DNA from: Saprospiraceae bacterium
Lineage (GTDB): Bacteria > Bacteroidota > Bacteroidia > Chitinophagales > Saprospiraceae
Assembly (NCBI GenBank): GCA_020630775.1
Contig: JAHDIN010000001.1
Coordinates: 1-64,000, forward strand
DNA length: 64,000 nt
Direction: 5' to 3'
Position numbers and translations under genes: made by a program
Part shown: positions 36,191-54,011 of the stretch, piece by piece
Position numbering within the stretch: position 1 is the first letter of the stretch
How the letters are laid out: every line of letters starts with the position of its first letter
The notes under the pieces: model-generated
Told to the model about the DNA's origin: nothing
Seen by the model: the letters and a program-made list of their open reading frames with translations, nothing else
The model's database searches: none

Positions 36191-39100
36191 ATGATTACCC
36201 ATTTCATTAAAGTATTCGTTTTGATTTCATTGGCTTTGCCAGTATTGAGCCAGCCATTGGAGTTTGAATTCAGTACAACAGATTCACCTACACCAGGAGG
36301 TACAATGGATGTCTCTGTCAAAGTGTCTAATTTTGATCAATTATTAAGTGCTCAAGTAGGCATTTATTGGGATTCGACGGTATTGGAAATCGATACTGTA
36401 CCCTTCGTATCAACGGATTTACCAGATTTCAATAGGCAATCTCTAAGTCTTCCAGAAGATAATCAAACGGTTATAAAAGGAAAAGTAAAGCTTTCATGGA
36501 GCAGCTTTTCATTGAATCCCCAATCTTTACCCGATGATACAGAGCTATTTACGCTTAGATTTAATGTCATAGGGGATGCTTGTGACATGACTGCTCTATT
36601 TTTAGACGATCCACAACCTCCATTCTTGCAAATAGAGGTTATTCATAATGCTAAAGATGAGATAGGGGCTATCTCTAATGATTTTGCGGTCATGATTCCT
36701 GGCACAGATTGTGGTGATCCACCTCCTCCGCCAACAGATTGTATGGCTGGGGATTTAGTTTTTGAAGTGGAAGACATAAGCGCAGACCAAGGAACGAATG
36801 TATGTGTGCCTGTTTTAGTAGAAAACTTCGTTGATGTTGCTACTTTTCAAGGAAGTTTCGTGTGGGATCCATCAATTCTAGAATTTACAGAGGTTAGAAA
36901 TGTTAATTTACCTGGGGCAGGTCCTGGTAATTTCAATATTAATGAGTCAGCAGGGACGGCTGTTCTTGTTTGGTTTGATAATACTGGTGGTTCTAATACT
37001 CAAACTTTGGCAGATGGATCTGCATTGTTTGAGATTTGCTTTAACGCTATTGGAGCTGCAGGGAGTAAAGCTATTGTACAAGCTTCAGATTCGCCAACTT
37101 CACTTTCTGTTGGGGACTCAGCGAATACAGTTTATGAAAATTGCATCATACCGGGTTGCGTTAACGTTACAGGTATGATCAATCCAACGGACTTTACTAT
37201 TGTTACTAATTCAGTTCAAAGTTGTAATCAATCAAGAGTTTGTGTTGATGTTACTGTAGATAATTTTACAGATATCATTTCCACTCAATTTACATTGCAC
37301 TGGGATAATAACTTGCTGTGCTACAGCGGTTTAGAAAATTTAAACCAGACAATAGGTCTTTTTGAATCATTATTTTTTCAGCAAGATGATGTCTTGAGAT
37401 TAACTTGGGGAGACCCGAATGGTTTTACCTTACCAAATGGTACACGACTGTTTACTGTTTGTTATGATGTGAAAAACCCTTCAAGCACATTTAATGCTAA
37501 TATTAATGTGGTTGATGACAATGTCCCTATTGAAATAGTCAAAATAGGCGATGAAATCATAGATTTTGCATTAAATATTGGTCAAGTTCAGAATTGCACC
37601 ACTCCTAATGGTTTGGATATTAGCTTTCAATCTACTTCACCAAATTGTAACGGACAAAGTACTGGTAGCATTACCGCAACAGTTTCTGGTGGGACTGCAC
37701 CGTATACTTGCTCATGGGGTGCGCCAATAAATGCGACTGAAACTACAAATGGTACTTGTACACAAAATGGTTTATCAGCCGGTACCTATACGCTTACTGT
37801 GACTGATGCGTCTGGAACAAGTGAAACAGCTCAAACAACGATATCACAACCTAATGCGATAGCTATAACAGGCTCTACAAGTCCTCAGACTTTAAACAAC
37901 AATGGATCGATATCATTCAACATAAGTGGAGGTACACCACCATATACTCAGTCTTGGACTGGAAACATTGATCCTACAAATGTTCCGGCTGGTACTTACA
38001 CACTATTGGTTACAGATGCTAATGGATGTCAAGAAACTGAGGTATTTACAGTAGGATCTACATTAGATCCTGTGGTAGTTAGTGTTACAGGAATATTTGC
38101 TGCTGGTTGTACTGATAATGGAAGAATTTGTATTGAATGTACAGGAGGAAGCGGCACCTATATGCTACCACAAGCAACACCACCATTGACTTTTGATTCT
38201 AATCAAGGGTGTTTTGTGAATGTTCCACCAGGTAATTACACAATTAGATGTAGAGATAATGCAGGTCAGGAAGGAACTCGAGATGTTACAGTAAGCAGAT
38301 CTACAGATCCAATCTCTGTAACTATTACTAATATAGTACCTGCTCAATGTGAAGGAGGAGGTACATTCGATATAAACACTACAGGAGGATGCCCTGGATA
38401 TGCGATAACATTAGGTTTAGATGGCGGTGCTAAAGTGCCATTTGTTCCTGGTTCTGCGTACTTAGCAGGTAACTATACAGTATGTGTAAGAGATGCCGCT
38501 GGAAATGAAACTACAGTAACTTTTAATCTTCCGACGGTCAATACGCCTGCTCCATCTATTCAAGTAGAAAACCTCTCAGGGGCAGACTGTAATGGAGATG
38601 GTACTGTTAGAATTACAATAAACGATGGATGTAATCCTCAGTGCGAGATATTAGAAAACGGTGTTGTAGTTGCTGGTTGTAACAATGGTGGCATTACCTC
38701 ATTGCCAGCAGGTAGTTATGTGGTTCAAGTTACTGATGATCAAGGACTTACAGCTAGTTCTTCATTTAATATTGGCTTGGATCCAAACATTCCACCTTTA
38801 AACATTGCGCTTAATGGTGTAACAGACGCACCATGTGGCGGCATGGATGGATTGGTTGATGTCAATGTAACAGGTGGATGTGGTGCTTCTGATTGTATGA
38901 TTCAAACAAATGGAGGGGCATTGGTGCCTTGTGAATTTGTTGGAACGGCAATTCAAGCTGCTGAAGGTAATAGTATACTAACTTTCACTGATGCTGTTAC
39001 AGGCAGTACTTCACAAATTTCTGTGACTGTTGGTATAGCTCCAGATGCCTTAGGATTGAATTTAGTTTCAACAACAGCTTCTAGTATAGACATAGAACCT

Positions 39101-40051
39101 GTTAATGGGCTAGCGCCATTCTCTTATTCTTGGACATTTGAAAATGTGGTCATAAGCAATGAAGAAGATTTAACTGGCTTGACAATGGCAGGCACCTACA
39201 CAGTGATAGTTACCGATGCAGAAGGTTGTACATCATCTTTGTCTGTAACTATTGCAGCAGGAGGTGGACCTTCGATTACAATTTTTGATCAATTAATTGA
39301 AGCAGCTAGTTGTGGCGGAAATATGGATTGTGACGGTGTTATAGTGGGTAGTGTTTCTGGTGGAACTGCACCATACACATTAACATTTACAGACCAATTT
39401 GGAAATACACGAATTGTCAATATTGATAATGATGGAGAATTTACTGTTCAAAATGTTTGTGGTGGTAGTTATAGTCTAGTGGTTGGAGATGCGGCTGGAA
39501 ATGAATCTGTTTTCAGTACACCTATAATCGTTCCTTCACCTCTTGAGTTAATCATTACAGAGGATACTATAAATTGTGAGGATCCAGGTGAAAATAATGG
39601 TTCAATATCTGTATTTGTAGAAGGTGGCGATGGCGGATATGTTTATGAATGGTCCCCAAGTCTCCCTAATCAAGGGCCTTCTAACGAGAATCTGGCAGCA
39701 GGGAATTACTTGTTGAGAGTCACAGATGTAAGTGGATGCGCCGCTGAGTTATTACTAACAGTACCTAGCTGCACGACTGGAGCCGATGGTTGTGGAGAAG
39801 CGATATCAGTCATTTCGCCTAATAATGATGGTATGAATGATTTATTCCTAGTTAATTGTGATGATCCAGGAGCCAAAAGATTATTAGTTTTTGACCGATG
39901 GGGTAGATCTGTGTTTGAAAGTGCAGATTACAATAACACTTGGGGAGGTTTGGATCAAGATGGTCAAGAACTTCCAGAAGGTGCATATTATTGGGTCTAT
40001 GAAGTGAACGGTCGAATTTTCAAAGGAACTGTAACATTATTAAGAGATTAA
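36191..40051 (+). CDS. Surface protein with three tandem cohesin-like modules, SprB-like repeats and T9SS type B tail
   Basis: A 1286-aa exported protein; signal peptide MITHFIKVFVLISLALPVLS. Three cohesin-like beta modules sit in tandem at about 22-170, 186-325 and 333-475. Each repeats the pattern 'V-x-V-x-N-F ... F-x-x-x-W-D-x-x-x-L-x-F/Y ... L-x-W' (e.g. VENFVDVATFQGSFVWDPSI and VDNFTDIISTQFTLHWDNNL). A series of SprB-like or Ig-like repeats (about 475-1195) carries GGTAPYT-x-x-W and AGTYTLTVTDA cores. The end (about 1206-1286) is the CHU_C gliding-motility-type sorting domain: ISPNNDGMNDLFLVN, FDRWGRSVFES, LPEGAYYWVYEV. The following gene encodes a PorP/SprF protein, as is usual for type B cargo. 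It could act as a scaffold for dockerin-like partners encoded on both sides (inference). Confidence 0.88.
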   Translation: MITHFIKVFVLISLALPVLSQPLEFEFSTTDSPTPGGTMDVSVKVSNFDQLLSAQVGIYWDSTVLEIDTVPFVSTDLPDFNRQSLSLPEDNQTVIKGKVKLSWSSFSLNPQSLPDDTELFTLRFNVIGDACDMTALFLDDPQPPFLQIEVIHNAKDEIGAISNDFAVMIPGTDCGDPPPPPTDCMAGDLVFEVEDISADQGTNVCVPVLVENFVDVATFQGSFVWDPSILEFTEVRNVNLPGAGPGNFNINESAGTAVLVWFDNTGGSNTQTLADGSALFEICFNAIGAAGSKAIVQASDSPTSLSVGDSANTVYENCIIPGCVNVTGMINPTDFTIVTNSVQSCNQSRVCVDVTVDNFTDIISTQFTLHWDNNLLCYSGLENLNQTIGLFESLFFQQDDVLRLTWGDPNGFTLPNGTRLFTVCYDVKNPSSTFNANINVVDDNVPIEIVKIGDEIIDFALNIGQVQNCTTPNGLDISFQSTSPNCNGQSTGSITATVSGGTAPYTCSWGAPINATETTNGTCTQNGLSAGTYTLTVTDASGTSETAQTTISQPNAIAITGSTSPQTLNNNGSISFNISGGTPPYTQSWTGNIDPTNVPAGTYTLLVTDANGCQETEVFTVGSTLDPVVVSVTGIFAAGCTDNGRICIECTGGSGTYMLPQATPPLTFDSNQGCFVNVPPGNYTIRCRDNAGQEGTRDVTVSRSTDPISVTITNIVPAQCEGGGTFDINTTGGCPGYAITLGLDGGAKVPFVPGSAYLAGNYTVCVRDAAGNETTVTFNLPTVNTPAPSIQVENLSGADCNGDGTVRITINDGCNPQCEILENGVVVAGCNNGGITSLPAGSYVVQVTDDQGLTASSSFNIGLDPNIPPLNIALNGVTDAPCGGMDGLVDVNVTGGCGASDCMIQTNGGALVPCEFVGTAIQAAEGNSILTFTDAVTGSTSQISVTVGIAPDALGLNLVSTTASSIDIEPVNGLAPFSYSWTFENVVISNEEDLTGLTMAGTYTVIVTDAEGCTSSLSVTIAAGGGPSITIFDQLIEAASCGGNMDCDGVIVGSVSGGTAPYTLTFTDQFGNTRIVNIDNDGEFTVQNVCGGSYSLVVGDAAGNESVFSTPIIVPSPLELIITEDTINCEDPGENNGSISVFVEGGDGGYVYEWSPSLPNQGPSNENLAAGNYLLRVTDVSGCAAELLLTVPSCTTGADGCGEAISVISPNNDGMNDLFLVNCDDPGAKRLLVFDRWGRSVFESADYNNTWGGLDQDGQELPEGAYYWVYEVNGRIFKGTVTLLRD

Positions 40052-40075
40052 TCCTCAGGGTTTTAAATAGACATC

Positions 40076-41059
40076 ATGAAAAAGTTATTATTCATACTTT
40101 CAATTGTCACTTTCGCTTATTCAATTTCAAATGCTCAAACAAGAAATGATAGTGAGAGATACTTTGATGAAAGATATATATCAAGTACAAGTTTTTTAAA
40201 TCCTGTCGTAATCAATCCAGGTGCTGCGGGATTCGATAGTGATCACCATTTATTACTGAATTATAGAAACAAATGGGCAAGTTTTCCTGGTTCACCTAAG
40301 TCTATAATTCTCAGCTACGATGGTCCTGTTGCTGATAGATTGGGCTTTGGGGCTATGTTGAATACAGATACAAATGGAGACCTAGAAACAACTAAGTTAG
40401 CAGGTAGCCTAGCATATACATTGGATACACCAATTAATAAAATAGGTGTTGGATTCTCTGGAGAGTATATACAGCATAGATTAAGTGGTGATGCACTTAA
40501 TAACAACCTAGTAAATATTGAGGATCCTTCGATATTAGACAGGTTAGAGGGTACCAACTTCTTTGATGTCTCTGTAGGTCTATTTGGGATATATGATAGC
40601 AAGATTACTTATGGTCTTGCTTTACCTTCTTTGGTTAGTTCAAGGATTGATAATGAAGACAGCGTTGCTGAAAGAGAAATAGGCTACATTTTTAATGTAG
40701 GATATATTTTTGATGAATTAGAATCTGGAATGACACTGGAGCCTTCATTATTTGTTAAGCAGTTAATGAATGTCCCTTTTCATGCTGATGTTAACTTACT
40801 TGGGAGGTTTTTAGATGATAAGTTAAGGACTGGAATTACATATACGATTGGTGCTGATGAAAAACTAGGTTTCTTAGTTGGATTTGCAGTAAATACGCTA
40901 AACTTTACTTATGCGTATAATGCTAGCAGAAATGAATTTCAGACTTATAATAACGGTTCTCATGAGCTTTCTCTTAGAATCGATATAGGAAAAAGTAAAG
41001 CGAAAGTTGTGGATCAGGAGATGATGGATAAGAGTATGATGAATGAATCGATGAATTGA
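40076..41059 (+). CDS. PorP/SprF family outer-membrane protein
   Basis: A 327-aa beta-barrel protein of the PorP/SprF family, which works with the type IX secretion system to bring type B cargo to the surface. The signal peptide ends at SNAQT. The family start SSTSFLNPVVINPGAAGFDS, then LLLNYRNKWASFPGSPKSII and DRLGFGAMLNTDTNGDLETT, are typical. Repeated amphipathic strands follow to SHELSLRIDIG. The last 20 residues are a Met- and Asp-rich hydrophilic tail (QEMMDKSMMNESMN), longer than usual. The gene begins 24 bp after the CHU_C-type gene, so the pair is probably one operon dedicated to exporting and anchoring that cargo. Confidence 0.92.
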   Translation: MKKLLFILSIVTFAYSISNAQTRNDSERYFDERYISSTSFLNPVVINPGAAGFDSDHHLLLNYRNKWASFPGSPKSIILSYDGPVADRLGFGAMLNTDTNGDLETTKLAGSLAYTLDTPINKIGVGFSGEYIQHRLSGDALNNNLVNIEDPSILDRLEGTNFFDVSVGLFGIYDSKITYGLALPSLVSSRIDNEDSVAEREIGYIFNVGYIFDELESGMTLEPSLFVKQLMNVPFHADVNLLGRFLDDKLRTGITYTIGADEKLGFLVGFAVNTLNFTYAYNASRNEFQTYNNGSHELSLRIDIGKSKAKVVDQEMMDKSMMNESMN

Positions 41060-41374: not shown

Positions 41375-41854
41375 ATGAAAAAAACGTTAAACGTTTATTT
41401 TGAGAAAACTTACATCTTGGCAAGCTTGAAGACGATGGCTTTGATGTTTGCATTTACTGTATGTTTTCTAAGCTTTTCGTCTGATGCGAGTGCACAGACA
41501 TTCAACACAAATCCGTTTACAAATGCACAAAACGGTAAAATTGCTCAAGTAGACCTTACGTTTGCTAAGCAATTTGAATTTACTTCTGAGTCGAGCGCTG
41601 CTGCTCAAACTTTAAGAAGTGAATTGCAAGATCTTCATGCTACTCAACCTACAAACGGTGTTTTGTCAGAAGCTAACTATGCTTCCAAAGTTTACTTTTT
41701 GGAAGACTTAGTTGCGACTCTAGGCAAAAATTCTGACGTGGCGGATTCTTTTCAAGAGTCTTACCAAAGATTGGCAAACTATACTTCCCAAACTTTTAGT
41801 ATAAGTGTCGACATAGAGGGCATATTCAGAACATATGCGGGTCTAGTAAACTAA
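41375..41854 (+). CDS. Small secreted helical protein, uncharacterised
   Basis: A 159-aa protein with a long N-terminal export signal: charged start, hydrophobic core TMALMFAFTVCFLSF and a cleavage site near DASAQT (about 41). The mature part, about 118 residues, is Ala/Ser/Thr/Gln-rich and mostly helical (SSAAAQTLRSELQDLH, YASKVYFLEDLVATLG). It has no cysteine, T9SS tail or lipobox, so it would stay periplasmic or be released. I do not recognise the family. The giant paralog 2 gene starts 48 bp downstream with no terminator between, so the two are probably co-transcribed and this may be a helper or partner of that protein. Confidence 0.8.
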   Translation: MKKTLNVYFEKTYILASLKTMALMFAFTVCFLSFSSDASAQTFNTNPFTNAQNGKIAQVDLTFAKQFEFTSESSAAAQTLRSELQDLHATQPTNGVLSEANYASKVYFLEDLVATLGKNSDVADSFQESYQRLANYTSQTFSISVDIEGIFRTYAGLVN

Positions 41855-41902: not shown

Positions 41903-44900
41903 ATGAAAAAGATTTATTTATTAACTATAGCGGCGATCTGTTTCTGCATGACCTTGCAGGCTCAGGTTACTGTTAATTATGTCGCCAACGCTTTCGACAA
42001 CGAAACTGCTTGGTTGCTTTGGGATGCAACAGACCAGGTCCCTTTGGCACAGCGTGAGCTGGGCGTAAATCAACCGTTTGGAACACCGACCACTGTTACG
42101 GTATTCCCTCCTACGGGCAACGCTATTGAGTTGTACACTTATGAGTCATTCGGTGACGGATGGAATGGATGTACGATTGAATTAGTGTGCGGTGGCACCT
42201 CAATTTTTGGTCCTGCGGATCCTGGTACTTCTGGTTGTGATGCAACTGGTAGTGTTGTTGATGAGGTGATTATTATTGAAACAATAGTTTCTCCATGTAC
42301 TGGAGAGTTAACAGAAGTTGAGGTTTCTGCACTAGCTCCTGATCCAGGAGGTGCGCAGCCTGTAGTTGGAGCTCCTTGCCCAGCTGACCTTATCGCTTCT
42401 TGTACAGCTCCAGTTAATCCTTTAGTTGGATGTGATATAATATGTCCGGATGATTTGGTTTTAAATACAGACCCTGGTGTTTGTACGTCTAATGCATCTC
42501 TTCCTGGTCCAACATTTGATCCAGCTGATTGTAATTTAACTGAACAAGTTGATTTCGTAGAGACAACAACAGGTGATCAAGATTTAGCATTCACTGGTGG
42601 TACTTTTGCGGGTGGTACATTTTGTATTCCTGCAGGTCCAGCTCCAGCTGTTTGTGTAGATGAAGTTGCTTTCACATTCTGTTGGACTACAGATAACGGA
42701 GGTAGTGGTGCTGGATTTGAATCAGCGGCGATTACTTTCCCTGCTCCATTGATTAATCCTGCAACATTCGAAAACCTAAATGGTAACTTCCCTGCAAATG
42801 GTACAGTTATTCCTGCTGGTGCTTCTGGTACTGATACACCTCAAGGCGGACCATTATTTACAAACGATGGAATGCCAACTGGTAATGGTGACTGTACTGA
42901 AGCATGTGTAGATATTGTTGTTAGTTTAGCGGATTACGCTAATTGGAATGGTGGATGTTTCGATTTATCTGCTGACACTGGAATTAATCTATTCTGTGCT
43001 GATAACTCAGTTAATATATCAACTAATATTGCGACTGATTGTGCTCCATATTCTGTAACTATTGAGGGTGTAACTGATGCTAATGGTAACCCCCTTGCAG
43101 GCGCTGCTCCTTCAGCTGTTGCTGCTGGTGTAGATTTCCCAATAGGAACTACAACTGTTTGCTACGTGGCTACAGGATCTGCTAATGGTATGTCATTCCC
43201 AGTATCTTGTAAATTCGATGTTACTGTTTGCGATATGGAGGCTCCAACTTTAACATGTCCTGGAGACTTTACTTTCAACCTTCAAGGTGGTGAGTGTTGT
43301 CAGAAATATGACTTTGAAGTTATAACATCTGATAATTGCCCAGGTCCTCCAAGTTCAGTAGTTGGTCCATTCTGTGATCCGTGTGCTGATCCTTCTGGTG
43401 GTTCTGCTTTAGCTTGTGGTGCAGGTCCTAATGCTATACTTCAGGTTATTTCTGGAGTTGAGGAAGGATTTTCATTAACAGAAGTGTGCTATAACCAAGA
43501 AACTTTTGGTACTACGACTACTGCTGTAGTAAACGTGTACTGCTATGATGGTGTAACTATACCTTTTGATGATGGTATGGGAACATTCACTCCATTTGCT
43601 ACAACAAATGCTACACTTGGTAATGATGGTGAGTGTATCTGCATTGATTTCCTTGATATGACGAACGGTACTTATCCTACAATTCCTGTTGGATGTACTG
43701 AAATAGTTGTTGAGGTTGTAAATGCTACTGGTAGATCAGTGCAAACTCCAGCTGCTTGCGATGGTGCAACTGCAGATGGTGGTTTAACATATATTTTCGC
43801 TCCTGCTTGTGGATTAACATCTCCTGTATTGTTCAGTGGAATTGGATTTGCTTTAGATGCTGGTTTCTCAGTATCTCTTATCGATCCTGCTTTCCCTGAG
43901 CCAGTAGAGAATCCTAATGCTGTTGTACCTGCAGGTGCTACATTAAATGAATTTGAGTCTGGTGATGAATTGCCTGTAGGTATTCACTGTTGGGCATTTA
44001 CAGCTACTGATGCTGCTGGTAACACTTCTGAGTGTGACTGGTGTGTTCAAGTAAATGCTATCCCAGAGGATCAAGTTGTTACATCTTTAGCTTGTAATGA
44101 CTTAGTCAACTTATCACTTGATGCTAATTGTATGACATTTATTTCTGCGGATATGTTCTTAGAGGGCGGTCCTTATGGATGTTACTTTGATTGTTACGAA
44201 GTATATATCACAGATCAGTTTGACAACCCAGTTGTTTCTGGTTGTGGAGATGATGCTTCTAAAACTCCGGGTGGTGATCCTGTATTTGGAAACACTAATC
44301 CAAATGACGTAAATGGTTGTACAATCGATCTACCTTGTGGTGAGTATAAGGTAATGGTATATGATGCATGTAATGATAATACATGTTGGGGTAACTTATT
44401 AGTTGAGGACAAAATTGCACCAGTTGTGATTCCTCCAGCTGATGTTACATTAAATTGCTTACAGTCTGTAGAGCCGGGTACACCGATTAATGGTGAGGTT
44501 AATGTTGCAGCTGAAGCTAATTCAATTACTTGGGATGATGGAACTACAGGTGATGTTGGTGAATTAACATTTACAATTCCGCCACAGACTACTGGTGCTG
44601 TTATCACTGATATTAATATCGACATTTCTTTGGCTCACAGTTGGGCGGGTGATGTTACAATTGAAGTTGAAGGTCCAGATGGAAATACTGTTGATATCTA
44701 TAACAGACACTGTGCTAACAACAATAACATTGATGTTACAGTAGATGAAGAAGGTACAATACCTATGAATTCTTGTGCTGCTTGTGCTTTCTTGGGAGGC
44801 ACTACAGAAGATTGCCCTGGTTTAGACGAAACTGCTGCAGGATACTGCGCAACTGTTAATAGTGTTAGACAATCTAATGAGCTAGCATCTGGAGCTGGTC

Positions 44901-47900
44901 CTGGTTTAACACAATGGTATGGATTACCTGTTGGAGGTACGTTCACAGTGAGATTTGGTGATGCTGTTGGAGGTGACGGTGGATGTCTAGAAGCTTTCTC
45001 AATGAATATAACTTGGGAATGTCCTGCTGCTGGTATGGCTACAATCGAAAATGGTTGTGGAACAGAAAGTTTAGATTATCAAGATGAGTATTTTGATAAT
45101 GGATGTGGTGGTTCTAGAATTGTTAGAACTTGGTTCGCATCTGATGAAAAAGGTAATATGGGTACTGCTCAAAGTCAGGTATTCATTACTCAGGTTGGAC
45201 TTGAAGGTGAGAATTCAGAGTGGTTCTGGCCAAATAGTAGTGTAGATCTTACTTGCGGTGCTTGTACTGATCCTGAGTGTATATATGATTTTTGTAGATC
45301 TGCTTGGGAAGCTGCTAATCCATGGCCTGAGTCTTGGGTAATTGATCCTGAGTGGTTTGAAGATGATATCGCAGTATGGAATGCAAACGCTAATGCAGCA
45401 GGTACTGTATGTGCTTACCCTTACTTCTTAACTAAAGGAGGTACTGCAGACAGATTTGATATAAATAATTGCAACATGTTCTACTCTTACACTGATCAAT
45501 TATTGCCAGTGTGTGGTGCAGGATGTGACGGTAATAGTAAAACAATCAGAACTTGGACTGCTTTAGACTGGTGTACTGGTGAAACTGCGAACGCTGTTCA
45601 GGTTATCCATGCTAAAGATAATGAAGGACCAACTATTGATTTAGTTGAGCAACATACTGTAAGCGCTTCCCCTTGGGGTTGTGCAGCAAGCTTTATCTTA
45701 CCAGTGCCTGAGCACTTAAAAGATAATTGTTCTTCTGATGTTACTTATACTGTATATGGCAAGCCGGGTACTGTTACAGATGTAAGCTCTAGTCCTTACT
45801 TCGATGGTGCTAATTGGGTAGTTGCAGGATTACCTAAAGGTGGACCTCATGAGTATACTTACGTTGCTGAAGATTGTTGTGGAAATTCTACATCAGCTAC
45901 TTTAATTGTATTTGTTGTTGATAGTACACCACCAATTGCAACTGCAACTCAGAATATCGTCATTAACTTAACTTCTTCTCCAACTGATCCTAACGGTGGT
46001 ATTGCTAAGTTATATGCTACTAGCGTTGATAATGGTTCAAATGATGGTGATTGTGGTCCTGTCAGAATTGCAATCAGAAGAGTTGAAGCTGATGAAGATG
46101 CTGAAGAGAACGATGGATTCTGTGGAAACTTAGGTGTTGATGATCACAATAGTAACGCTACATTCTTCAACTTTAATGATTTACCTAACTCTCAACAGCC
46201 TGCTGATCACAGTAGAGATGATTTAGATAATGGTGAATATGTTAAGTTCTGTTGTGCTGATTTGTCAGGCGAAGATGCAGTATTCGATTCTATTACTGGA
46301 ATGACATACGCACTAATCGATGTTGAATTAGGTGTATGGGATGATTCAAATATGGATGGTGTACCTGGTACTCCAGGTGATCAGTTCAATAAGACATGGG
46401 CAACTGTAAGAGTTGAGTCTAAGTTAGAGGCTGTTATTTTGTGTCCACCATTAGCAAAGATTACTTGTGATATGGATGAGACAGATTTAGCCATGACTGG
46501 AACTGCAAGTGCGACTGCTACATGTGGCAATATGCCAGTTGAGTACATGGATTTATGTGGATTGGATATTAACCAGGATATGGAAATAGCTGGTTACAGA
46601 AATGGACAGACTGTAAATGAGGTTGGTATGTGTTGGGATGTTAACGGTGACGGAGTTATAGCTAATTATAGTTCTCCTAGTGCTGCTGGCTCAGATGCTG
46701 CTGGATATATTGAGGAAGATTTCTTCAATAAGGCTTGTCACAATGGTCCTATCACAAGATGGTGGTATATCCCAGGCACAGATACTAAGTGTCGTCAGAT
46801 AATCATCGTAGAGCCTAACGATAATGTATTTGCAGGTAATGGTTTTGATGCTGATGATGATGGTAACTGTGATGCTGACAACCCTCTAGAAATTTGTCCA
46901 GAGATTGACTGGCCTTATTCAAGAAACGCGTTCATTAATTTAGTAAATAATGATACAGCTGCTGATTGTGATGGTGATGGTAGAGGAAATGAGATAAGCA
47001 GTAGTGATATTGAATTATTTGATAACGGAGGCTACCCTACGTATGCTGAGGTTGCAATGGATTGTATTGATGCTCTTTGTGAGGAGCCAGTATGGGTAAA
47101 TGCAAACTGCAGCTTAATTGGTTGGTCTTTAGAAAGTGATACTTTCTACTTCGAAGGTGATGCTTGTAGAAAAATCATTAATACTTACACAGTAATTGAC
47201 TGGTGTCAGTACAATCCTAACGAGGGATTCGAAGGAATCTGGACTTGGACTGTAATTGGTAAGTTAATTGATCCTTATGCACCAATAGTCGAGGTACAAG
47301 ATACTATGTTTGGTGTTGGAGGCGGTGGAACCGGCTCTAACGATCCAAGTGCAGGTTCTTGCGTTTATGGAGGTTTCACAGCTTGTGCTACTGCTTATGA
47401 TACTCAAGTAGATGAGGATGGTGATACTATCGCTAATGCTTGTCCTAGTGAGTGGTTGAAGTGGAATGTATACCTAGATTTAAATAATGACTGGGTATTC
47501 GAAAGAGAGTGGTCTTCATTTGTACCTGAAGACAAGAATACACCTGCTGATCCATTATGGTCAGAGGATAACGCTGATGATAACTTAGATGTATATGGTT
47601 ATACAATTCCAGATGTTGCTGTAGGTAACACTGGTGATGTGGATAACGCAGACGATATTGCTACGCCTCCAGGATTCAAGTATATAATTAATATACCTGA
47701 TGCTGTGGAAGCTGATTGTGATGGTTCAACTCAACACAGAGTAGTTTGGAAAGCATATGATGGTTGTGGTAATGTTACTTCAGTAACTAACTACTTTACT
47801 GTTCAAGATGTTAAAGCTCCAACTCCATTCTGTATTAACCTAAGTACTGCTTTAATGGCTGATCCAGATGGTGACGGTCCTGCAGGTCCTATGGTTGAGT

Positions 47901-49399
47901 TATGGGCTATTGATTTCAATGCTGGTAGCTTCGATAACTGTACTGATCCGGATGCTTTGAGATACACTTTCTCAGATGTTGCTCCTGAAGATGATCCTGA
48001 TTATAACCCAGCTTCTAGATCTTCAGCAAGAGTATTTGATTGTAATGATTTAGCTGGTTCAAACAATGCAGTATTAACTGTTAATGTTTATGTATGGGAT
48101 CAGTGTGGTAACTACGATTTCTGTGTAGTTAACTTGAGATTAATTGATAACTCAGGTGACTGTGGAAACGGTGTACCTACAGGAAGTATGATAGCCGGTG
48201 ATGTAACTACTGAATTTGGAGAAGCTGTTGAATCTGTAGAAATCTACAACGATAATATGCTTGATCCTAATTTGAACACTGATGATATGACTGAAAATGA
48301 TGGTCACTATGCATTTGAGTGGAATGAAGAAGGAAGTGATTATGAAATAACTGCAGCTAAGAATGATGATTACTTAAATGGAGTATCAACATTAGACCTT
48401 GTTATTATTCAGAGACATATTTTAGGTACTGAGTCTTTAGACAGTCCTTACAAAATGATTGCAGCTGATGTTAATAATGATCAGAAAATAACAGCTATCG
48501 ATCTTATTGAGTTAAGAAAGTTAATCTTAGGTATCTACGATGAGCTTCCAACTAACTCAAGCTGGAGATTTGTTGATGCTAGTCAAACACTTGACATTAA
48601 CAATCCTTGGAACATGGACGAAACGATTAACATCTACAGCTTAGCTGCTGATATGATGGAAGAGGATTTCGTAGGTGTTAAGATTGGTGATGTTAATGGA
48701 AGTGTCATTGCAAACGCTCAATCTGTTAGTCCTGAGAAGAGATCAGCAACAACTGTTGATATCGTATTCGAAGATAGAGCTGTAGAAGTAGGAGAGTTAG
48801 TTGAAATCACTGTTTCAGGTGAATCAATGACTGAAGTATATGGTTACCAGTTTACTTTAGAAACTCCTGGTTTACAATTAGTAGATGTAACTGAAGGTAC
48901 AGTTAATGTTTCAAGTGCAAACTTTGGTTCTTTCAATGGTAAAGTAACCACTTCTTGGAATAGCTTAACTCCAATTACTCAAGATGGTGACTTATTCACA
49001 ATGACATTCAAGTCAACTGTGTCAGGTCAGTTATCGCAACTAATAGATCTTAATAGTTCGATTACAAAGGCTGAAGCTTATGTTGGTCAAACATTAGATA
49101 TCGTTAGTGTTGAACTAAGAGGAGGTACTGGTGTAACTACTTATGCACTATATCAGAATGAGCCTAACCCATTCTCTAATAGAACAATGGTTGGCTTTGA
49201 ATTACCTGAAGCAGGTCAAGCTACTTTAACAGTACTTGATGTTACGGGTAAAGTATTAAAAGTAATCAATGGCGATTATGCTAAAGGTTACAATGAAGTT
49301 GAATTGAGTAAGTCCGATTTTGGAGCTGCAGGAGTTTACTACTATCAATTAGATAGCGGTGATTTCACAGCTACGAAGAAGATGATTATAATCGAATAG
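41903..49399 (+). CDS. Giant cysteine-rich surface protein with P domain, dockerin-like, cohesin-like and T9SS modules (paralog 2)
   Basis: A 2498-aa exported protein, the largest in the window; signal peptide ends at TLQAQV. The N-terminal part carries YESFGDGWNGCTIEL (about 75-90), a motif seen in diverse secreted proteins, then HYR-like modules. The family module LACNDLVNLSLDANCMTFIS to CWGNLLVEDKIAP is internal here (about 730-845), followed by a proprotein-convertase P-like domain (about 860-1045). The paralog core follows: RTWTALDWCTG, DNGSNDGDCGP to YVKFCCADL, VIDWCQYNPNEG, TPFCINLSTALM to GSFDNCTD. Then a dockerin-like pair (about 2155-2226; second loop ADVNNDQKITAIDLIELRK has all calcium-ligand positions), a cohesin-like module (about 2283-2396) and a T9SS type A tail (about 2415-2498). 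Codon use favours GCT, GGT and GAT, suggesting high expression. Confidence 0.88.
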   Translation: MKKIYLLTIAAICFCMTLQAQVTVNYVANAFDNETAWLLWDATDQVPLAQRELGVNQPFGTPTTVTVFPPTGNAIELYTYESFGDGWNGCTIELVCGGTSIFGPADPGTSGCDATGSVVDEVIIIETIVSPCTGELTEVEVSALAPDPGGAQPVVGAPCPADLIASCTAPVNPLVGCDIICPDDLVLNTDPGVCTSNASLPGPTFDPADCNLTEQVDFVETTTGDQDLAFTGGTFAGGTFCIPAGPAPAVCVDEVAFTFCWTTDNGGSGAGFESAAITFPAPLINPATFENLNGNFPANGTVIPAGASGTDTPQGGPLFTNDGMPTGNGDCTEACVDIVVSLADYANWNGGCFDLSADTGINLFCADNSVNISTNIATDCAPYSVTIEGVTDANGNPLAGAAPSAVAAGVDFPIGTTTVCYVATGSANGMSFPVSCKFDVTVCDMEAPTLTCPGDFTFNLQGGECCQKYDFEVITSDNCPGPPSSVVGPFCDPCADPSGGSALACGAGPNAILQVISGVEEGFSLTEVCYNQETFGTTTTAVVNVYCYDGVTIPFDDGMGTFTPFATTNATLGNDGECICIDFLDMTNGTYPTIPVGCTEIVVEVVNATGRSVQTPAACDGATADGGLTYIFAPACGLTSPVLFSGIGFALDAGFSVSLIDPAFPEPVENPNAVVPAGATLNEFESGDELPVGIHCWAFTATDAAGNTSECDWCVQVNAIPEDQVVTSLACNDLVNLSLDANCMTFISADMFLEGGPYGCYFDCYEVYITDQFDNPVVSGCGDDASKTPGGDPVFGNTNPNDVNGCTIDLPCGEYKVMVYDACNDNTCWGNLLVEDKIAPVVIPPADVTLNCLQSVEPGTPINGEVNVAAEANSITWDDGTTGDVGELTFTIPPQTTGAVITDINIDISLAHSWAGDVTIEVEGPDGNTVDIYNRHCANNNNIDVTVDEEGTIPMNSCAACAFLGGTTEDCPGLDETAAGYCATVNSVRQSNELASGAGPGLTQWYGLPVGGTFTVRFGDAVGGDGGCLEAFSMNITWECPAAGMATIENGCGTESLDYQDEYFDNGCGGSRIVRTWFASDEKGNMGTAQSQVFITQVGLEGENSEWFWPNSSVDLTCGACTDPECIYDFCRSAWEAANPWPESWVIDPEWFEDDIAVWNANANAAGTVCAYPYFLTKGGTADRFDINNCNMFYSYTDQLLPVCGAGCDGNSKTIRTWTALDWCTGETANAVQVIHAKDNEGPTIDLVEQHTVSASPWGCAASFILPVPEHLKDNCSSDVTYTVYGKPGTVTDVSSSPYFDGANWVVAGLPKGGPHEYTYVAEDCCGNSTSATLIVFVVDSTPPIATATQNIVINLTSSPTDPNGGIAKLYATSVDNGSNDGDCGPVRIAIRRVEADEDAEENDGFCGNLGVDDHNSNATFFNFNDLPNSQQPADHSRDDLDNGEYVKFCCADLSGEDAVFDSITGMTYALIDVELGVWDDSNMDGVPGTPGDQFNKTWATVRVESKLEAVILCPPLAKITCDMDETDLAMTGTASATATCGNMPVEYMDLCGLDINQDMEIAGYRNGQTVNEVGMCWDVNGDGVIANYSSPSAAGSDAAGYIEEDFFNKACHNGPITRWWYIPGTDTKCRQIIIVEPNDNVFAGNGFDADDDGNCDADNPLEICPEIDWPYSRNAFINLVNNDTAADCDGDGRGNEISSSDIELFDNGGYPTYAEVAMDCIDALCEEPVWVNANCSLIGWSLESDTFYFEGDACRKIINTYTVIDWCQYNPNEGFEGIWTWTVIGKLIDPYAPIVEVQDTMFGVGGGGTGSNDPSAGSCVYGGFTACATAYDTQVDEDGDTIANACPSEWLKWNVYLDLNNDWVFEREWSSFVPEDKNTPADPLWSEDNADDNLDVYGYTIPDVAVGNTGDVDNADDIATPPGFKYIINIPDAVEADCDGSTQHRVVWKAYDGCGNVTSVTNYFTVQDVKAPTPFCINLSTALMADPDGDGPAGPMVELWAIDFNAGSFDNCTDPDALRYTFSDVAPEDDPDYNPASRSSARVFDCNDLAGSNNAVLTVNVYVWDQCGNYDFCVVNLRLIDNSGDCGNGVPTGSMIAGDVTTEFGEAVESVEIYNDNMLDPNLNTDDMTENDGHYAFEWNEEGSDYEITAAKNDDYLNGVSTLDLVIIQRHILGTESLDSPYKMIAADVNNDQKITAIDLIELRKLILGIYDELPTNSSWRFVDASQTLDINNPWNMDETINIYSLAADMMEEDFVGVKIGDVNGSVIANAQSVSPEKRSATTVDIVFEDRAVEVGELVEITVSGESMTEVYGYQFTLETPGLQLVDVTEGTVNVSSANFGSFNGKVTTSWNSLTPITQDGDLFTMTFKSTVSGQLSQLIDLNSSITKAEAYVGQTLDIVSVELRGGTGVTTYALYQNEPNPFSNRTMVGFELPEAGQATLTVLDVTGKVLKVINGDYAKGYNEVELSKSDFGAAGVYYYQLDSGDFTATKKMIIIE

Positions 49400-49427
49400 T
49401 ACTAGAATAAAATCGGTTTTTGGGATG

Positions 49428-49460
49428 GCCTCTCTCCATTTTTTGGAGGGGGGCTTTTTT
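49428..49460 (+). terminator. Rho-independent terminator after paralog 2
   Basis: GCCTCTCTCC (49428-49437) pairs with GGAGGGGGGC (49445-49454, G-U pairs included) around a T-rich loop, then TTTTTT. It is preceded by TTTTTGGGATGG, which recurs before the terminator of paralog 3. Confidence 0.85.
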
Positions 49461-49524
49461 ATATTAAAAAATTCATATGTAAAAAATATCTAATATGAGT
49501 TAGAATTAGATATAATAGAATATC

Positions 49525-49532
49525 TACATTTG
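49525..49532 (+). promoter_or_regulatory. Candidate -7 promoter core TACATTTG for paralog 3
   Basis: TACATTTG fits TAnnTTTG and is identical to the candidate before paralog 4 (60883-60890). It would leave a leader of about 135 nt before the ATG at 49671; that leader has a small inverted repeat (TAATC/GATTA near 49610-49625) and a purine-rich AGAGGA just before the start. No clear -33 TTTG. Confidence 0.4.
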
Positions 49533-49670
49533 TCTAATCAAAGGATTATCTCTCAGTAATCCGATGATAACCTGTCTAATGAAAATAGATCCTTCATTAA
49601 GTAATATTTAATCTTTTGGGATTAAGAAGTCACTTAAGACCCAAACAGTAAAATTTTAAAAGAGGATCTC

Positions 49671-52600
49671 ATGATGTTTATGAATCTGAAGAGGATAGCT
49701 TCTCTGCTATCGATTACATTAGTATTAACAGTCTTTGTTTCCACTACGGAAAGACTTTACAGTCAGTGCTCTCTTGCATGTAATGGTAATACTCAAATAT
49801 CTCTGGATGTAAATTGTGAGGCTGAAATTACAGCCGATATGATTTTGAATGATCAAGCTACTTCATGCATGGGTGGCTCTTTCCAAGTATTTGTTGAGGA
49901 TGAATATGGCGTAATTGCGACTAGTCCAACAGTAACAGGGATATATTGCGATAAGTCTTTAAAAGCAAGAGTAGTAGACACGAATACTGGAAATGCTTGC
50001 TGGGGGAATATACATATCGAAGACAAATTAGGTCCTATAGCAACTTGTCCTGACCCGAATATAGTTGATATGGACTGTGCTGATATGAGACTATATGATG
50101 GTCCTGAGTTCATTGATAATTGTAGCGGTACAATAACACCTATATTATTGTCAGAGCAAATTGAAACACTCTGCGATCCAAATTTTATCAAGCAGATAAC
50201 AAGAAGTTATACTGCAGTAGATAGTAAAGGGAATGAGGCTCCAAACGTTTGTACTGTAACATTAAGATTAAGGAGAATAAATTGGGATCAGGTTTTATAT
50301 CCAGATTCATATGAAATCGTAAATAATACATTTTTAGATTGTGGTGGTGATGATTGGGATACTAACAATAATGGCTATCCAGATCCTGAAGAGGTAGGGG
50401 TACCAATGTATGAAACTTCTTTTATGGGGCAGTTAGATACAATTGACTTGTATCCTTTTCCCGATGTCTACTGTAATACTGTTGTAACATTTGAGGATAC
50501 AGTATTACCGAAAATTGGATGTACTCAAAAAATTATGAGGAGATGGACAGTAAGGGAATGGCATTGTAATGGTGAGGTAACGGCTAATAATGTGCAAGTT
50601 ATTGAGATCACAGATCAAACTGGCCCTGAAATAGTTTGTGGAGAAAATATAACAGTTACAACTAATACTTTATTAGGAGGGGGACATTCTTCTGTTTATG
50701 GTAATGTATCATGCGGCTCAACAGTAAGTTTACCTGTACCTCAAACAACTGATAATTGTTCTAGTAATATTACTATAGATGTCTTATATGACGGGGGATT
50801 AACTCAAGATTATGACGGTAGTCAAGCTATAACTGTACCAATGGGATTATCATTAGTACAGTATACAGCCTATGATGAATGTTATAATTCTTCTTCTTGT
50901 ATTATACACGTTAATGTAGTAGATAATACACCTCCTGTGGCTGTTTGTGATCAAAATACTGTTGTGAGCTTAACAACAGGTGGTGAGGCAGTTGTACCAG
51001 CAACAAGTTTTGATGATGGCTCTTATGATGACTGTAAAACACATTGCATGCTTGTAAGAAGAATGGATACAGGAAGTTGTGATTGTCATCAACCTGAATT
51101 TTGCGATCTAGATTATGTCGGAGAGTTTAATGGAAGCCATTATTATCTTTCTAACTACAATATTACAGCAGACATTGCTAAAGCAAGAGCAGCTGCATAT
51201 GGGGGAGGTTTAGTAGTATTTAATACAGAAGAGGAGGAAGAGTATGTGATCGATGCCGTAAGAGCTAGATACCAAGATAGATTTTGGATTGGTGCAAAGC
51301 GATTTGGTTCAGGATTTACTTGGGATGATCATACAGCAATAGTAGATCCTAACTGGGCTATGGGGCAGCCTTCAAATGATCCTGGTGAAGATTGTGTTAT
51401 GATAACGCCAAGTAATGAGTGGAATGACGCTTCTTGTTTTGGTGAGTGGAGATATGTTTTAGAAATCAACGATCCTTGTGGCTTCAGTAGGGGTGCTAAA
51501 TTCTGTTGTGCAGATACTGGTGTAGATCAAATGGTTGTATTTAGAATTGTCGACATATTTGGAAACTTTAATGAGTGTATGGTAAATGTCGATGTACAAG
51601 ATAAAGTTGCTCCGCAAGTAGTATGTCCGCCAGATATGACAGCTGATTGTGATGCTACAGTTGATGCATCAAATTTAGATGCTTTATTTGGAACAGCTTC
51701 TGTTCTAGATGACTGTGGCGCTGAAATAATATCTAACCCTGATGACCAAGTGAACCAATGTAATGTAGGTGAATTAACTAGAATATTTACAGCTACTGAC
51801 TCAGGGGGAAGAAGCTCGACTTGTAAGCAAGTTATAACATTCGAAAATGACGATCCATTTGATGGTACATTAATAAGATGCCCAAGTGATACTACAATTG
51901 TTGGATGTTCTGCACCTTCAGATTTAGGTCCTGATGTGTTAGGTTCACCATATTTTCCTTCGGACCCATGTGACTTAATTGGTGTTGATTTTGATGATGA
52001 GGTATTTACTTTTAATAATCAGAATACTGATGCTTGCTTAAAGATTTTAAGAACATGGCAGATAGTAGATTGGTGCCAACAAGACCCATATAATGGTTTA
52101 TATCCAACTTGGGGTTGCCAACAAGTAATTAAAATTTCTAATGGTGTGAAGCCAGTAATATCTGGTTGTAAGCCTGAGATGATTTGCACTTACGATTCAG
52201 ATTGCGAAGATGGGTTTATCGAGTTGATCGTTACTGCAACAGATGATTGTACAGAAGAGTCGAACTTAAGTTGGAGATACGAAGTATTTGCTGGACAGTT
52301 AGGCTTAGGTCCAGATCCAAGTCTAAATAATCCAATAATCGTGGAATCAGGTGAAGGTGGTATGGCAGATGCAAGTGGAAAATATCCAATTGGTACGCAT
52401 TTGATAAGATGGACATTCTTTGATAGATGTGGTAATGCTACAACTTGTAATCAACCATTTACAATTCAAAATTGTAAAGCTCCAACAGCTTATTGTATCA
52501 ATGGATTGGCTGTAGATTTAATGCCAGTTGACTCTGACTTTGATGGTAATGTTGATTTTGGAATGGTTGAGTTATGGGCTTCAGATTTTGATGCTGGATC

Positions 52601-54011
52601 TCATCATCCATGTGGCTATGAAGTATTCTTATCTTTTTCTGCAGATACTGCTGATAAAAATATTTTATTCGATTGCACAAATTTAGGAGCAAACGATGTG
52701 GACCTTTGGGTTTCTGTTGTAGGTCATGATGGAATTTTAAATCAATCATTCTGTACTTCTTTTATTGATGTTCAAGATAATACAGGCGCTTGTCAAGGCT
52801 TAAGAGAATCTGTTTCTGTCGATGGTTCAGTTTTTACTGAAAACTTCGAATCAATGGAAGATATTGAAGTAATTCTTGATGGTAGTCCGTTAACAACTAT
52901 GACGGATAATGAAGGAGAGTATGCTTTCCCTAATATGCCAACAGGCGGAGAATATGTGATTAATCCATATAGCAATTCATTACCTCTAAATGGTGTATCT
53001 ACTTTTGACTTAATTAAAATCCAACAGCATATAACAGGTTCTGAAGCATTGAGCAGTCCTTATAAAATTATTGCGGCGGATATCAATAATGATAAAAATG
53101 TCACAGCATTAGATCTTATTGAGCTTAGAAAGTTGATACTTGGTGTTTATGATGAATTTCCTAATAATGACTCTTGGAGATTTGTAGATAGAGATTACAG
53201 TTTTGTTGATGTAAATAATCCATTTAATGAATCATTTACAGAGGACTATGAAATACCTTCATTAGATGCAGATATGACTATTGACTTTATCGCAATCAAA
53301 GTCGGTGATGTAAATAATACTGTGACTGTTGAAGCTAAAAGCAATGAGTTAGATAAAAGATCTAATAATTCAATTGCTCTTCTTTCTAAAGTTATTGATT
53401 ACAGAGAAAATCAGAAAATAGAAATACCATTTGTTTTTGATGCTAAAGATATCCGAGGGTATCAATTATCAATGACTTATGATACAGAGAAATTGAATGT
53501 TACTGGATTAAAGAATAATGATGGTACAATGAGTAATGCAAATTATGTTATCAACTCAAATGAAATCTTAATTAGTTGGAACACATTAATACCATCTGAA
53601 GCACAGTTTGTGATTGAGGCTGAAACTAAGGTTCAAGGCAATACATCTAATGTGTTTACAGTAACGAATACTTTATCTAATGAAGTTTATAACTCAAATG
53701 GTATAAAAGGATTTAGTGAATTGAAAATTGGAAATGAAATTCAAAGATCTGAATTTACATTATTCCAAAATCAACCGAATCCATTTACAAATGATACCAA
53801 TGTGAAATTTTACCTACCAGAATCTGATAATATTCAGTTATCTGTAACAGATTTACAAGGTAGAGTAATTCATGCTCATACTGGAAACTATGCTTCTGGA
53901 ATGAATAGCTTGACTATAAACAAAGAGCATATTGGTCAAGCAGGTATTTATCATTTAACGATTACAACAAGTACTAATAAAGAATCAATTAAAATGATTC
54001 TAATTAAATAA
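49671..54011 (+). CDS. Giant cysteine-rich surface protein with inserted C-type lectin-like domain (paralog 3)
   Basis: A 1446-aa exported protein. After the signal region (ending near ERLYSQC) the family N-module appears: LACNGNTQISLDVNCEAEIT to CWGNIHIEDKLGP. A degenerate first W-T motif (RRWTVREWHCNG) precedes the DDGSYDDC to FCCADTG module. Inside that module sits a C-type lectin-like domain (about 478-605): HYYLSNYNITADIAKARAAA, RFWIGAKRFGSGFTWDD, GQPSNDPGEDCVMI, SNEWNDASCFGEWRYVLEI, with the WND-type calcium motif. Then RTWQIVDWCQQDP, a TAYCINGLAVDLM to HPCGY module, a carboxypeptidase-regulatory-like module, a dockerin-like pair (about 1105-1175, ADINNDKNVTALDLIELRK), a cohesin-like module (about 1233-1343) and a T9SS type A tail (about 1363-1446). 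It likely binds glycans at the surface. Confidence 0.88.
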   Translation: MMFMNLKRIASLLSITLVLTVFVSTTERLYSQCSLACNGNTQISLDVNCEAEITADMILNDQATSCMGGSFQVFVEDEYGVIATSPTVTGIYCDKSLKARVVDTNTGNACWGNIHIEDKLGPIATCPDPNIVDMDCADMRLYDGPEFIDNCSGTITPILLSEQIETLCDPNFIKQITRSYTAVDSKGNEAPNVCTVTLRLRRINWDQVLYPDSYEIVNNTFLDCGGDDWDTNNNGYPDPEEVGVPMYETSFMGQLDTIDLYPFPDVYCNTVVTFEDTVLPKIGCTQKIMRRWTVREWHCNGEVTANNVQVIEITDQTGPEIVCGENITVTTNTLLGGGHSSVYGNVSCGSTVSLPVPQTTDNCSSNITIDVLYDGGLTQDYDGSQAITVPMGLSLVQYTAYDECYNSSSCIIHVNVVDNTPPVAVCDQNTVVSLTTGGEAVVPATSFDDGSYDDCKTHCMLVRRMDTGSCDCHQPEFCDLDYVGEFNGSHYYLSNYNITADIAKARAAAYGGGLVVFNTEEEEEYVIDAVRARYQDRFWIGAKRFGSGFTWDDHTAIVDPNWAMGQPSNDPGEDCVMITPSNEWNDASCFGEWRYVLEINDPCGFSRGAKFCCADTGVDQMVVFRIVDIFGNFNECMVNVDVQDKVAPQVVCPPDMTADCDATVDASNLDALFGTASVLDDCGAEIISNPDDQVNQCNVGELTRIFTATDSGGRSSTCKQVITFENDDPFDGTLIRCPSDTTIVGCSAPSDLGPDVLGSPYFPSDPCDLIGVDFDDEVFTFNNQNTDACLKILRTWQIVDWCQQDPYNGLYPTWGCQQVIKISNGVKPVISGCKPEMICTYDSDCEDGFIELIVTATDDCTEESNLSWRYEVFAGQLGLGPDPSLNNPIIVESGEGGMADASGKYPIGTHLIRWTFFDRCGNATTCNQPFTIQNCKAPTAYCINGLAVDLMPVDSDFDGNVDFGMVELWASDFDAGSHHPCGYEVFLSFSADTADKNILFDCTNLGANDVDLWVSVVGHDGILNQSFCTSFIDVQDNTGACQGLRESVSVDGSVFTENFESMEDIEVILDGSPLTTMTDNEGEYAFPNMPTGGEYVINPYSNSLPLNGVSTFDLIKIQQHITGSEALSSPYKIIAADINNDKNVTALDLIELRKLILGVYDEFPNNDSWRFVDRDYSFVDVNNPFNESFTEDYEIPSLDADMTIDFIAIKVGDVNNTVTVEAKSNELDKRSNNSIALLSKVIDYRENQKIEIPFVFDAKDIRGYQLSMTYDTEKLNVTGLKNNDGTMSNANYVINSNEILISWNTLIPSEAQFVIEAETKVQGNTSNVFTVTNTLSNEVYNSNGIKGFSELKIGNEIQRSEFTLFQNQPNPFTNDTNVKFYLPESDNIQLSVTDLQGRVIHAHTGNYASGMNSLTINKEHIGQAGIYHLTITTSTNKESIKMILIK

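Follow-up and report, generated by a model that had tools for sequence, protein, structure and literature searches.

Genes of the locus

The window, by which we mean the whole 64,000-nucleotide stretch of DNA analysed, encodes on its forward strand a secreted multi-cohesin scaffold of 1286 aa (36191..40051), a T9SS type B substrate, among genes for giant dockerin proteins in the same orientation; the open reading frames sit where an earlier, sequence-only reading of this DNA had placed them. The scaffold begins with three tandem modules (36257..36712, 36752..37162 and 37190..37597), continues in SprB-type Ig-like repeats (PF13573 SprB, 2.5e-13) that from the sequence read as a stalk with approximate limits of 37607..39760, and ends in a CHU_C type B T9SS sorting and anchor domain (39806..40009; PF13585, E 7.7e-20; TIGR04131, 40.5 bits), in agreement with the type B anchor proposed by the sequence-only reading. 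Only 24 bp after the scaffold gene begins a gene for a PorP/SprF-like outer-membrane partner (40076..41059; PF11751, E 4.5e-47), placing side by side the two elements, a type B C-terminal domain (CHU_C / TIGR04131) and an adjoining PorP/SprF gene, whose pairing is associated with surface anchoring of proteins (PMC9143113, PMC12618676). In every intact case (9/9) a PorP homologue lies directly 3' of the scaffold, separated from it by -27 to +25 bp; the order type B ORF-PorP-giant is retained in four closer relatives. Between the PorP gene and the next giant lies a gene for a small secreted protein of 159 aa without assigned function (41375..41854), which is retained in three close relatives.

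Three of the giants are complete. Giant 1 (31695..35987; 1430 aa) consists of an HYR-like body followed by a TTR-like domain, a dockerin (34950..35162), a cohesin-like module whose approximate limits (35337..35705) come from alignment with giant 2 and whose fold is assigned by homology, and a type A C-terminal domain. Giant 2 (41903..49399; 2498 aa) carries its dockerin at 48365..48577, its cis cohesin at 48752..49120 and its type A T9SS sorting domain at 49163..49390 (PF18962; TIGR04183), while giant 3 (49671..54011; 1446 aa) includes a C-type lectin domain (PF00059, E 6.9e-10) besides matches to PF23237, PF00404 and PF18962, with the dockerin at 52983..53189 and the cohesin-like module at approximately 53367..53729 by alignment. 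The tail cassette TTR-dockerin-cohesin-type A is common to all three. Giant 4 (60994..64000) continues beyond the end of the window, its dockerin lying at contig position 64177 and its cohesin-like module at 64555. A type A C-terminus (Por_Secre_tail / TIGR04183) is found in 27 of the 29 dockerin giants scanned; that the giants already possess a T9SS signal of their own is a point against a scaffold-based model. Terminator-like hairpins, found by pattern match only, lie between giant 1 and the scaffold (36012..36046) and 3' of giant 2 (49427..49455), the former suggesting that giant 1 and the scaffold form separate transcription units. Elsewhere in the window, a CDC50 identity for the protein at 24050-27496 was set aside, the match falling under the cut-off.

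Cohesins of the scaffold and the dockerin cassette of the giants

The scaffold modules are real cohesins. A Pfam scan of the entire protein missed them, as did a single-sequence phmmer search of solved structures with the N-terminal part of the scaffold, which returned nothing useful. Scanned singly, all seven modules tried, namely the three of the scaffold and four paralogous ones from the same genome, match PF00963 (7/7; best E 6.4e-9), upholding the three tandem cohesin-like modules of the sequence-only reading, with scaffold module 1, at 24.0 bits, falling 0.1 bit below the cut-off of 24.1. When a profile of scaffold-type modules is compared with solved structures, cohesins come first (5nrm, E 4.3e-7). 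The cohesin fold is a nine-stranded jelly-roll, and the predicted fold of module 2 superimposes on 5nrm, a dockerin-bound cohesin, with Z 17.5 and an rmsd of 1.8 Å over 134 residues. In a structure search with the scaffold model the best 40 matches are cohesins throughout, though they barely cover modules 1 and 3, the latter appearing in the model as a beta sandwich; fold matches to the scaffold model include the Archaeoglobus fulgidus cohesin 2xdh (Z 15.3).

The dockerins of the giants belong to PF00404. In protein scans giant 2 lies well above the cut-off of 22.9 (33.6 bits) and giants 1 and 3 lie under it (19.8 and 19.0 bits), but both of the latter pass in a DNA-frame scan (23.8 and 25.2 bits), by which 16 of 20 matches across the window's genome are above cut-off. 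The dockerin-like EF-hand pair ascribed to the three complete giants stands as a dockerin, but not as a pair of equals. The motif on which the sequence-only reading relied is the second loop, which is intact (D1, N3, D/S5, T/S9, D12). The first loop has degenerated at one of its ligands, position 5, where 76 of 98 relatives have Leu or Met; across these 98 it retains D/N at position 1 and mostly at position 3, and D at position 12. Because of the Leu/Met substitution, the first loop probably binds calcium poorly or not at all. Sites aligned with the recognition positions of type I dockerins are nevertheless near-fixed (T10 in 95/98, R17 in 98/98 and K18 in 86/98). Indeed, the dockerin is the most conserved of the modules, with a mean pairwise identity of 61% over 98 cassettes against 30% for the cis cohesin, and among the paralogues of the window's genome the disparity widens to 65% against 21%. 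Such conservation would be expected if one partner were common to all of the dockerins.

Which partner this would be is complicated by the cohesin-like module that each complete giant carries. The fold prediction identifies it as a cohesin, as the sequence-only reading had held, with the Pfam cut-off for PF00963 passed solely in the 2498-aa protein (24.8 bits). In the model of giant 2 the module (residues 189-314) matches 4uyp with Z 11.1 and an rmsd of 2.7 Å over 120 residues; this structure search of the cassette covered the tail as well as the cohesin but hardly touched the TTR-dockerin block. A cohesin-like module follows the dockerin in 109 of 110 cases at a fixed spacing of 52-72 aa, and a Gln on the presumed contact strand, aligned with the Asp/Asn on the strand of solved cohesins that touches the dockerin, is present in all cis cohesins (98/98) and in the scaffold modules. 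Since the dockerin occurs in a fixed cassette with a cohesin of its own, the scaffold is not its sole candidate partner, and the cis cohesin could be the real one, which counts against a scaffold-based model.

The near-universal pairing of these dockerins with a divergent cohesin of their own makes self-polymerisation or within-chain pairing a serious rival to binding by the scaffold. Giants might link up in series, dockerin to cis cohesin, yielding a polymer or cross-linked sheath that the scaffold merely starts or caps. The placement of both modules on one polypeptide at such constant spacing would suit this scenario, as would the preserved cohesin fold, the invariance of the presumed contact Gln and a number of dockerins in the genome that far exceeds that of scaffold cohesins. 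However, among paralogues no folded module is less conserved than the cis cohesin and none more so than the dockerin, a strange pattern for two partners that co-evolve. The match of the cis cohesin to solved cohesins is also poorer than that of the scaffold module, and the conserved scaffold neighbour is left unexplained. We therefore regard self-assembly as unlikely, while granting it more weight than any other alternative. A dockerin that instead folds back onto the cohesin of its own chain would produce a stiff, calcium-clamped stem near the surface, with the scaffold acting as a separate adhesin. The fixed order and spacing agree with such an arrangement, and TTR, dockerin and linker form a single high-confidence unit in the prediction (pLDDT about 97), but model confidence falls at residues 178-189, between this block and the cohesin, suggesting a hinge in the model. 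As intramolecular pairing likewise fails to account for the conserved synteny of scaffold and giants, it appears improbable.

Linkage of scaffolds and giants across Saprospiraceae

Saprospiraceae is a family of aquatic bacteria across which multi-cohesin scaffolds with 2 to about 10 cohesins occur. The survey of gene co-occurrence that the sequence-only reading had called for reveals a linkage of scaffold and dockerin giant far beyond both chance and a PorP/SprF control. Of 33 genomes that encode a multi-cohesin scaffold, 21 have the nearest dockerin on the scaffold's own contig and no more than 12 kb away, where 2.3 would be expected under a chance model of random placement (P about 1e-17); in the other 12 genomes scaffold and dockerins are not close, two of these cases being at contig ends. 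When loci are fetched via the dockerin cassette rather than via the scaffold, 12 of 79 show, next to a dockerin giant, a scaffold homologue that has a type B tail and between 2 and about 10 cohesins. Portibacter marinus and Phaeodactylibacter xiamenensis are cultured carriers of this locus. None of the seven genomes without a cohesin hit holds a dockerin of this kind (7/7). The correspondence has its exceptions: two good dockerins occur without a clear multi-cohesin ORF in one genome (G013), and a two-cohesin ORF without a dockerin in another (G022). In the window's genome the dockerins outnumber the scaffold cohesins, at about 18 to 3. Together with the 12 genomes lacking close linkage, these observations count against a scaffold-based model. 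We found no description of the Saprospiraceae dockerins of this system in the literature searched.

It could be argued that both modules are plain Ig-like stalk elements without specific pairing, reused as spacers and brought together by the clustering of T9SS surface genes. The degenerate first calcium loop is compatible with this view, as is the fact that cohesins and dockerins for which no partner is known are widespread beyond cellulosomes (PMC5244752, citing Peer et al. 2009). The PorP/SprF control argues against it: a listed dockerin is nearby for only 7 of the 89 PorP/SprF genes in eight genomes, each of these a scaffold partner, that is, 7/7 scaffold partners against 0/82 other PorP genes. 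Plain clustering of T9SS surface genes is thereby rejected as the cause of the co-location. Since the near-invariant recognition positions of the dockerin also speak against mere spacers, we hold this explanation to be quite improbable.

A candidate surface assembly and its relation to known systems

What is observed at this locus comprises the modules with their folds, a conserved gene order, the cassette and the link to PorP. On this basis we lean towards the view that it encodes a non-catalytic, surface-anchored cohesin-dockerin assembly, with the 1286-aa protein as an analogue of scaffoldins. As a type B substrate the scaffold would be exported via T9SS, and its own PorP/SprF partner would keep it at the outer membrane; the SprB-like repeats would serve as a stalk from which the N-terminal cohesins presumably face outward. 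The giants, HYR-like adhesin bodies of which one bears a C-type lectin, would take the type A route, whose outcome elsewhere is static attachment or release. Their near-identical dockerins might then plug into the scaffold cohesins, possibly in a calcium-dependent manner, using the one intact calcium loop and the conserved recognition surface. Many different giants could thus be collected at a single anchored site to form a coat, sheath or adhesive layer.

A true cellulosome, that is, an enzyme complex breaking down polysaccharide, shares the identical module logic, including several cohesins on the scaffold (three in the window, 2 to about 10 in relatives), but is contradicted at this locus and almost certainly not what it encodes, given that no catalytic or carbohydrate-binding family was found in the 29 dockerin giants, the scaffold or the scaffold relatives as read. 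The cellulosome logic invoked by the sequence-only reading thus survives in the several-cohesin scaffold beside dockerin proteins and fails for want of catalytic subunits and a scaffold carbohydrate-binding module, the Pfam scan of the scaffold returning no CBM even at E values of up to 1. The lack of catalytic domains had itself been noted there, and by Pfam it extends from the giants of the window to 26 related dockerin giants. Since there are no enzymes, it is probably a coat or adhesive layer that is built. A more elaborate form of the proposed assembly, which we advance tentatively and consider rather doubtful, is an enzyme-free Saprospiraceae coat or adhesive in which a type B/PorP scaffold with up to about 10 cohesins gathers an interchangeable set of up to about 35 giant adhesins sharing one dockerin code, the cohesins of these clients extending the array outward.

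It has been known for years that all domains of life have cohesins and dockerins beyond cellulosomes, whose role is described as unknown (PMC5244752, citing Peer et al. 2009). Against this background, the present system offers a specific, testable case, in which scaffold and clients are defined, the gene order is conserved and the anchor is known. It would carry plug-and-socket assembly into the non-enzymatic surface architecture of Gram-negative bacteria, would explain why a type A protein, static or released, is paired with an anchored type B protein, and may yield a new orthogonal cohesin-dockerin pair for engineering.

The closest parallel is with the clostridial anchoring scaffoldins (OlpA/OlpC/SdbA, ScaB type; PF00963), likewise non-catalytic cell-surface proteins with tandem cohesins whose many dockerin clients are encoded nearby and elsewhere in the genome; the scaffold modules described here fit type I cohesins. 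The clients here, by contrast, are enzyme-free, each has a cohesin of its own, their binding is a prediction, and T9SS type B/PorP takes the place of SLH or sortase as anchor. Non-cellulosomal cohesin and dockerin proteins of Archaea and Bacteria, such as those of Archaeoglobus fulgidus and ANME archaea (reviewed by Peer et al. 2009), also bear both modules on enzyme-free proteins, and in ANME HYR domains are co-abundant with cohesin and dockerin (PMC5244752), but a dedicated multi-cohesin scaffold, a conserved client gene order and an anchor pair of known type set the present system apart from such archaeal and bacterial proteins. The SprB/SprF adhesin-shuttle pairs and PG1035-PorP share the succession of a type B CTD gene and PorP/SprF as well as surface anchoring (PMC9143113, PMC12618676), but not the N-terminal cohesin array or a partner locus uniquely tied to dockerin giants. 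Like the mucinolysome and the amylosome (PMC12997984, PMC9112005), the assembly would put cohesin-dockerin pairing to a use other than cellulose breakdown; both of those, found in gut bacteria, are enzyme complexes or complexes that bind polysaccharide, whereas this one is enzyme-free and belongs to Saprospiraceae, within Bacteroidota.

The scaffold and its immediate surroundings

The window covers the first 64 kb of its contig, which belongs to a Saprospiraceae-type genome bin of 3.1 Mb that is 54% complete. The scaffold protein (36191-40051, +) has three cohesin-like modules at its N-terminus; SprB-type repeats come next, and a T9SS signal of type B ends the protein. A Pfam scan of the whole protein showed none of the cohesins; scanned singly, every module matches PF00963. 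Solved cohesins are the top matches (5nrm, E 4.3e-7) of a profile built from these three modules and four paralogous modules of the same genome and run against solved structures. When the predicted model of the three modules (mean pLDDT 81, pTM 0.48) was used for a structure search, the first 40 rows were all cohesins, the best being 5nrm, whose fit concerns the middle module (Z 17.5, rmsd 1.8, 134 residues). A PorP/SprF gene (PF11751, E 4.5e-47) starts 24 bp past the scaffold stop. Two paralogues of the scaffold in the same genome (on C12 and C10) have one cohesin each before SprB-like repeats and lie remote from dockerins.

The window also encodes a secreted animal-type haem peroxidase (27888-29786, +; PF03098, E 1.9e-144) and a reprolysin-like metallopeptidase with cadherin-like and P-domain-like modules (19920-23603, -), both with a type A T9SS tail. 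Directly upstream of the dockerin giant at 31695 lies a LuxR-type response regulator (30937-31605, +), which may control the cluster.

The dockerin cassette of the giant proteins

The giants at 31695, 41903 and 49671, and the one at 60994 that is cut by the window's end, share a C-terminal cassette: a TTR-like domain, a dockerin, a conserved 60-residue beta linker, a cohesin-like module (here the cis cohesin) and a type A T9SS signal. For the 2498-aa giant (41903), the cassette was folded with 97 relatives and predicted with mean pLDDT 94 and pTM 0.83; TTR-like domain, dockerin and linker form a single block of high confidence, the confidence then falls at 178-189, and next comes the cohesin, which fits 4uyp (Z 11.1, rmsd 2.7, 120 residues). 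The PorU C-terminal domain is among the Ig-like fold matches of the tail. The sequence-only reading had rightly seen a cohesin-like scaffold among dockerin-like giants. It had also seen no catalytic domains, and a scan of 29 dockerin giants turned up no catalytic family; HYR domains predominate in these giants, with a C-type lectin in one and a P-domain in one.

Of the cassette's parts, the dockerin varies least. Across 98 cassettes, mean pairwise identity is 61% for the dockerin, 44% for the linker, 43% for the T9SS tail and 30% for both cohesin and TTR-like domain, and the contrast is sharper among 17 own-genome paralogues (dockerin 65% versus cohesin 21%). Hardly any variation is seen at the dockerin positions that align with type I recognition residues, as assigned by the C. 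thermocellum numbering. Together, these sequence patterns are consistent with one shared partner. The second calcium loop is intact; in most members Leu/Met occupies ligand position 5 of the first. A Gln aligned with the Asp/Asn on the contact strand of solved cohesins, presumably the strand that touches the dockerin, is invariant in the scaffold modules. Because it is invariant in the cis cohesins too, these may also be able to bind a dockerin.

The searches of the genome turned up about 18 dockerin proteins, nearly all with a complete cassette; one of them is an open frame of 7731 aa. A thioredoxin-like body with a dockerin and no cohesin (C67:53371-54444) is possibly a non-giant client, and a 1668-aa protein in which a dockerin-cohesin cassette is joined to two scaffold-type cohesins (C7:377-5380) is a possible adaptor scaffoldin.

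Conservation of the locus

A cassette scan across 84,980 genomes gave 79 loci, for the most part from Saprospiraceae, and a cohesin-like module lies 52-72 aa downstream of the dockerin in 109 of their 110 dockerin ORFs. In 12 loci, a dockerin-free multi-cohesin ORF adjoins a dockerin giant. In the relatives' scaffolds the cohesins number from 2 to about 10 and are accompanied by SprB-like repeats and a type B tail. In 9/9 intact cases the very next gene, at -27 to +25 bp, is a homologue of the window's PorP. Four closer relatives have the order type B ORF, PorP, giant; three of them retain a small 159-aa protein, in the window a secreted protein of no known family between PorP and giant (41375-41854, +). 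The scaffold of Phaeodactylibacter xiamenensis (L121:12253-20446) carries some ten cohesins or more, several of them near-identical tandem copies, and is broken into two overlapping frames, either by a real frameshift or by an assembly artefact at the repeats. Many relatives encode, between dockerin giant and scaffold, a small single-cohesin protein (about 260-330 aa) with a type A-like tail (L121:11404-12207; L120:8134-8922; L118:1585-2586; also G001, G015, G020, G031, G049 and G060), which is absent from the window.

Such cohesins are present in 54 of 61 genomes surveyed (a draw of 60 from the family, for the most part with a single genome for each genus, and the window's own). Where a multi-cohesin scaffold and dockerin positions were obtained (33 genomes), the nearest dockerin lies <=12 kb from the scaffold on the same contig in 21, against 2.3 expected by random placement (P about 1e-17; 20/32 and P about 9e-17 without the window's own genome), P values that take no account of shared descent and give an order of magnitude only. 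In most of the 21 the giant is the immediate upstream gene of the scaffold; among the 12 misses are two genomes, G020 and G031, whose scaffold lies where a contig begins. As a control, 89 PorP/SprF genes of eight genomes were placed relative to the dockerins listed, in a list that stops short of the weakest matches: seven lie within about 12.5 kb of one, all seven being scaffold partners, as against 0/82 of the others (Fisher P 1.5e-10). Seven genomes without any cohesin match also yielded no dockerin of this type. There are two exceptions: G013 has two dockerins but lacks a clear multi-cohesin ORF, and G022 has two cohesins but lacks a dockerin. Outside Saprospiraceae, the same dockerin type appeared once, weakly, among 198 genomes drawn from the phylum. 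Since the scaffold-giant link is conserved across the family, the assembly proposed from the sequence is better supported than that reading could know.

A model of sockets and plug-in giants

Type A T9SS substrates are statically attached or released, and a type B substrate has a PorP/SprF partner of its own that carries and holds it (PMC12618676; PMC9143113). It is most economical to propose that the type B scaffold would provide anchored sockets, into which the type A giants would plug via their common dockerin. The analysis shows the modules and their folds, the types of anchor, the order of the genes and its conservation. We infer the binding step and the orientation of the partners; the binding may depend on calcium, and the assembly could serve as a coat or an adhesive layer. 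Since dockerins outnumber scaffold cohesins in the genome, a few giants would be bound at once, or several scaffold copies would be present per cell, or the array would grow through cis cohesins as well. The 5.1 Mb genome G050 has 35 dockerin proteins of the same type alongside one scaffold of five cohesins, which lies 1.2 kb from a dockerin.

A cellulosome identity is rejected, because neither enzymes nor CBMs were found in the 29 giants scanned or in the scaffold. The literature searched contained no description of such a system in Saprospiraceae. If the putative binding holds, the assembly would work in the manner of a scaffoldin-dockerin system.
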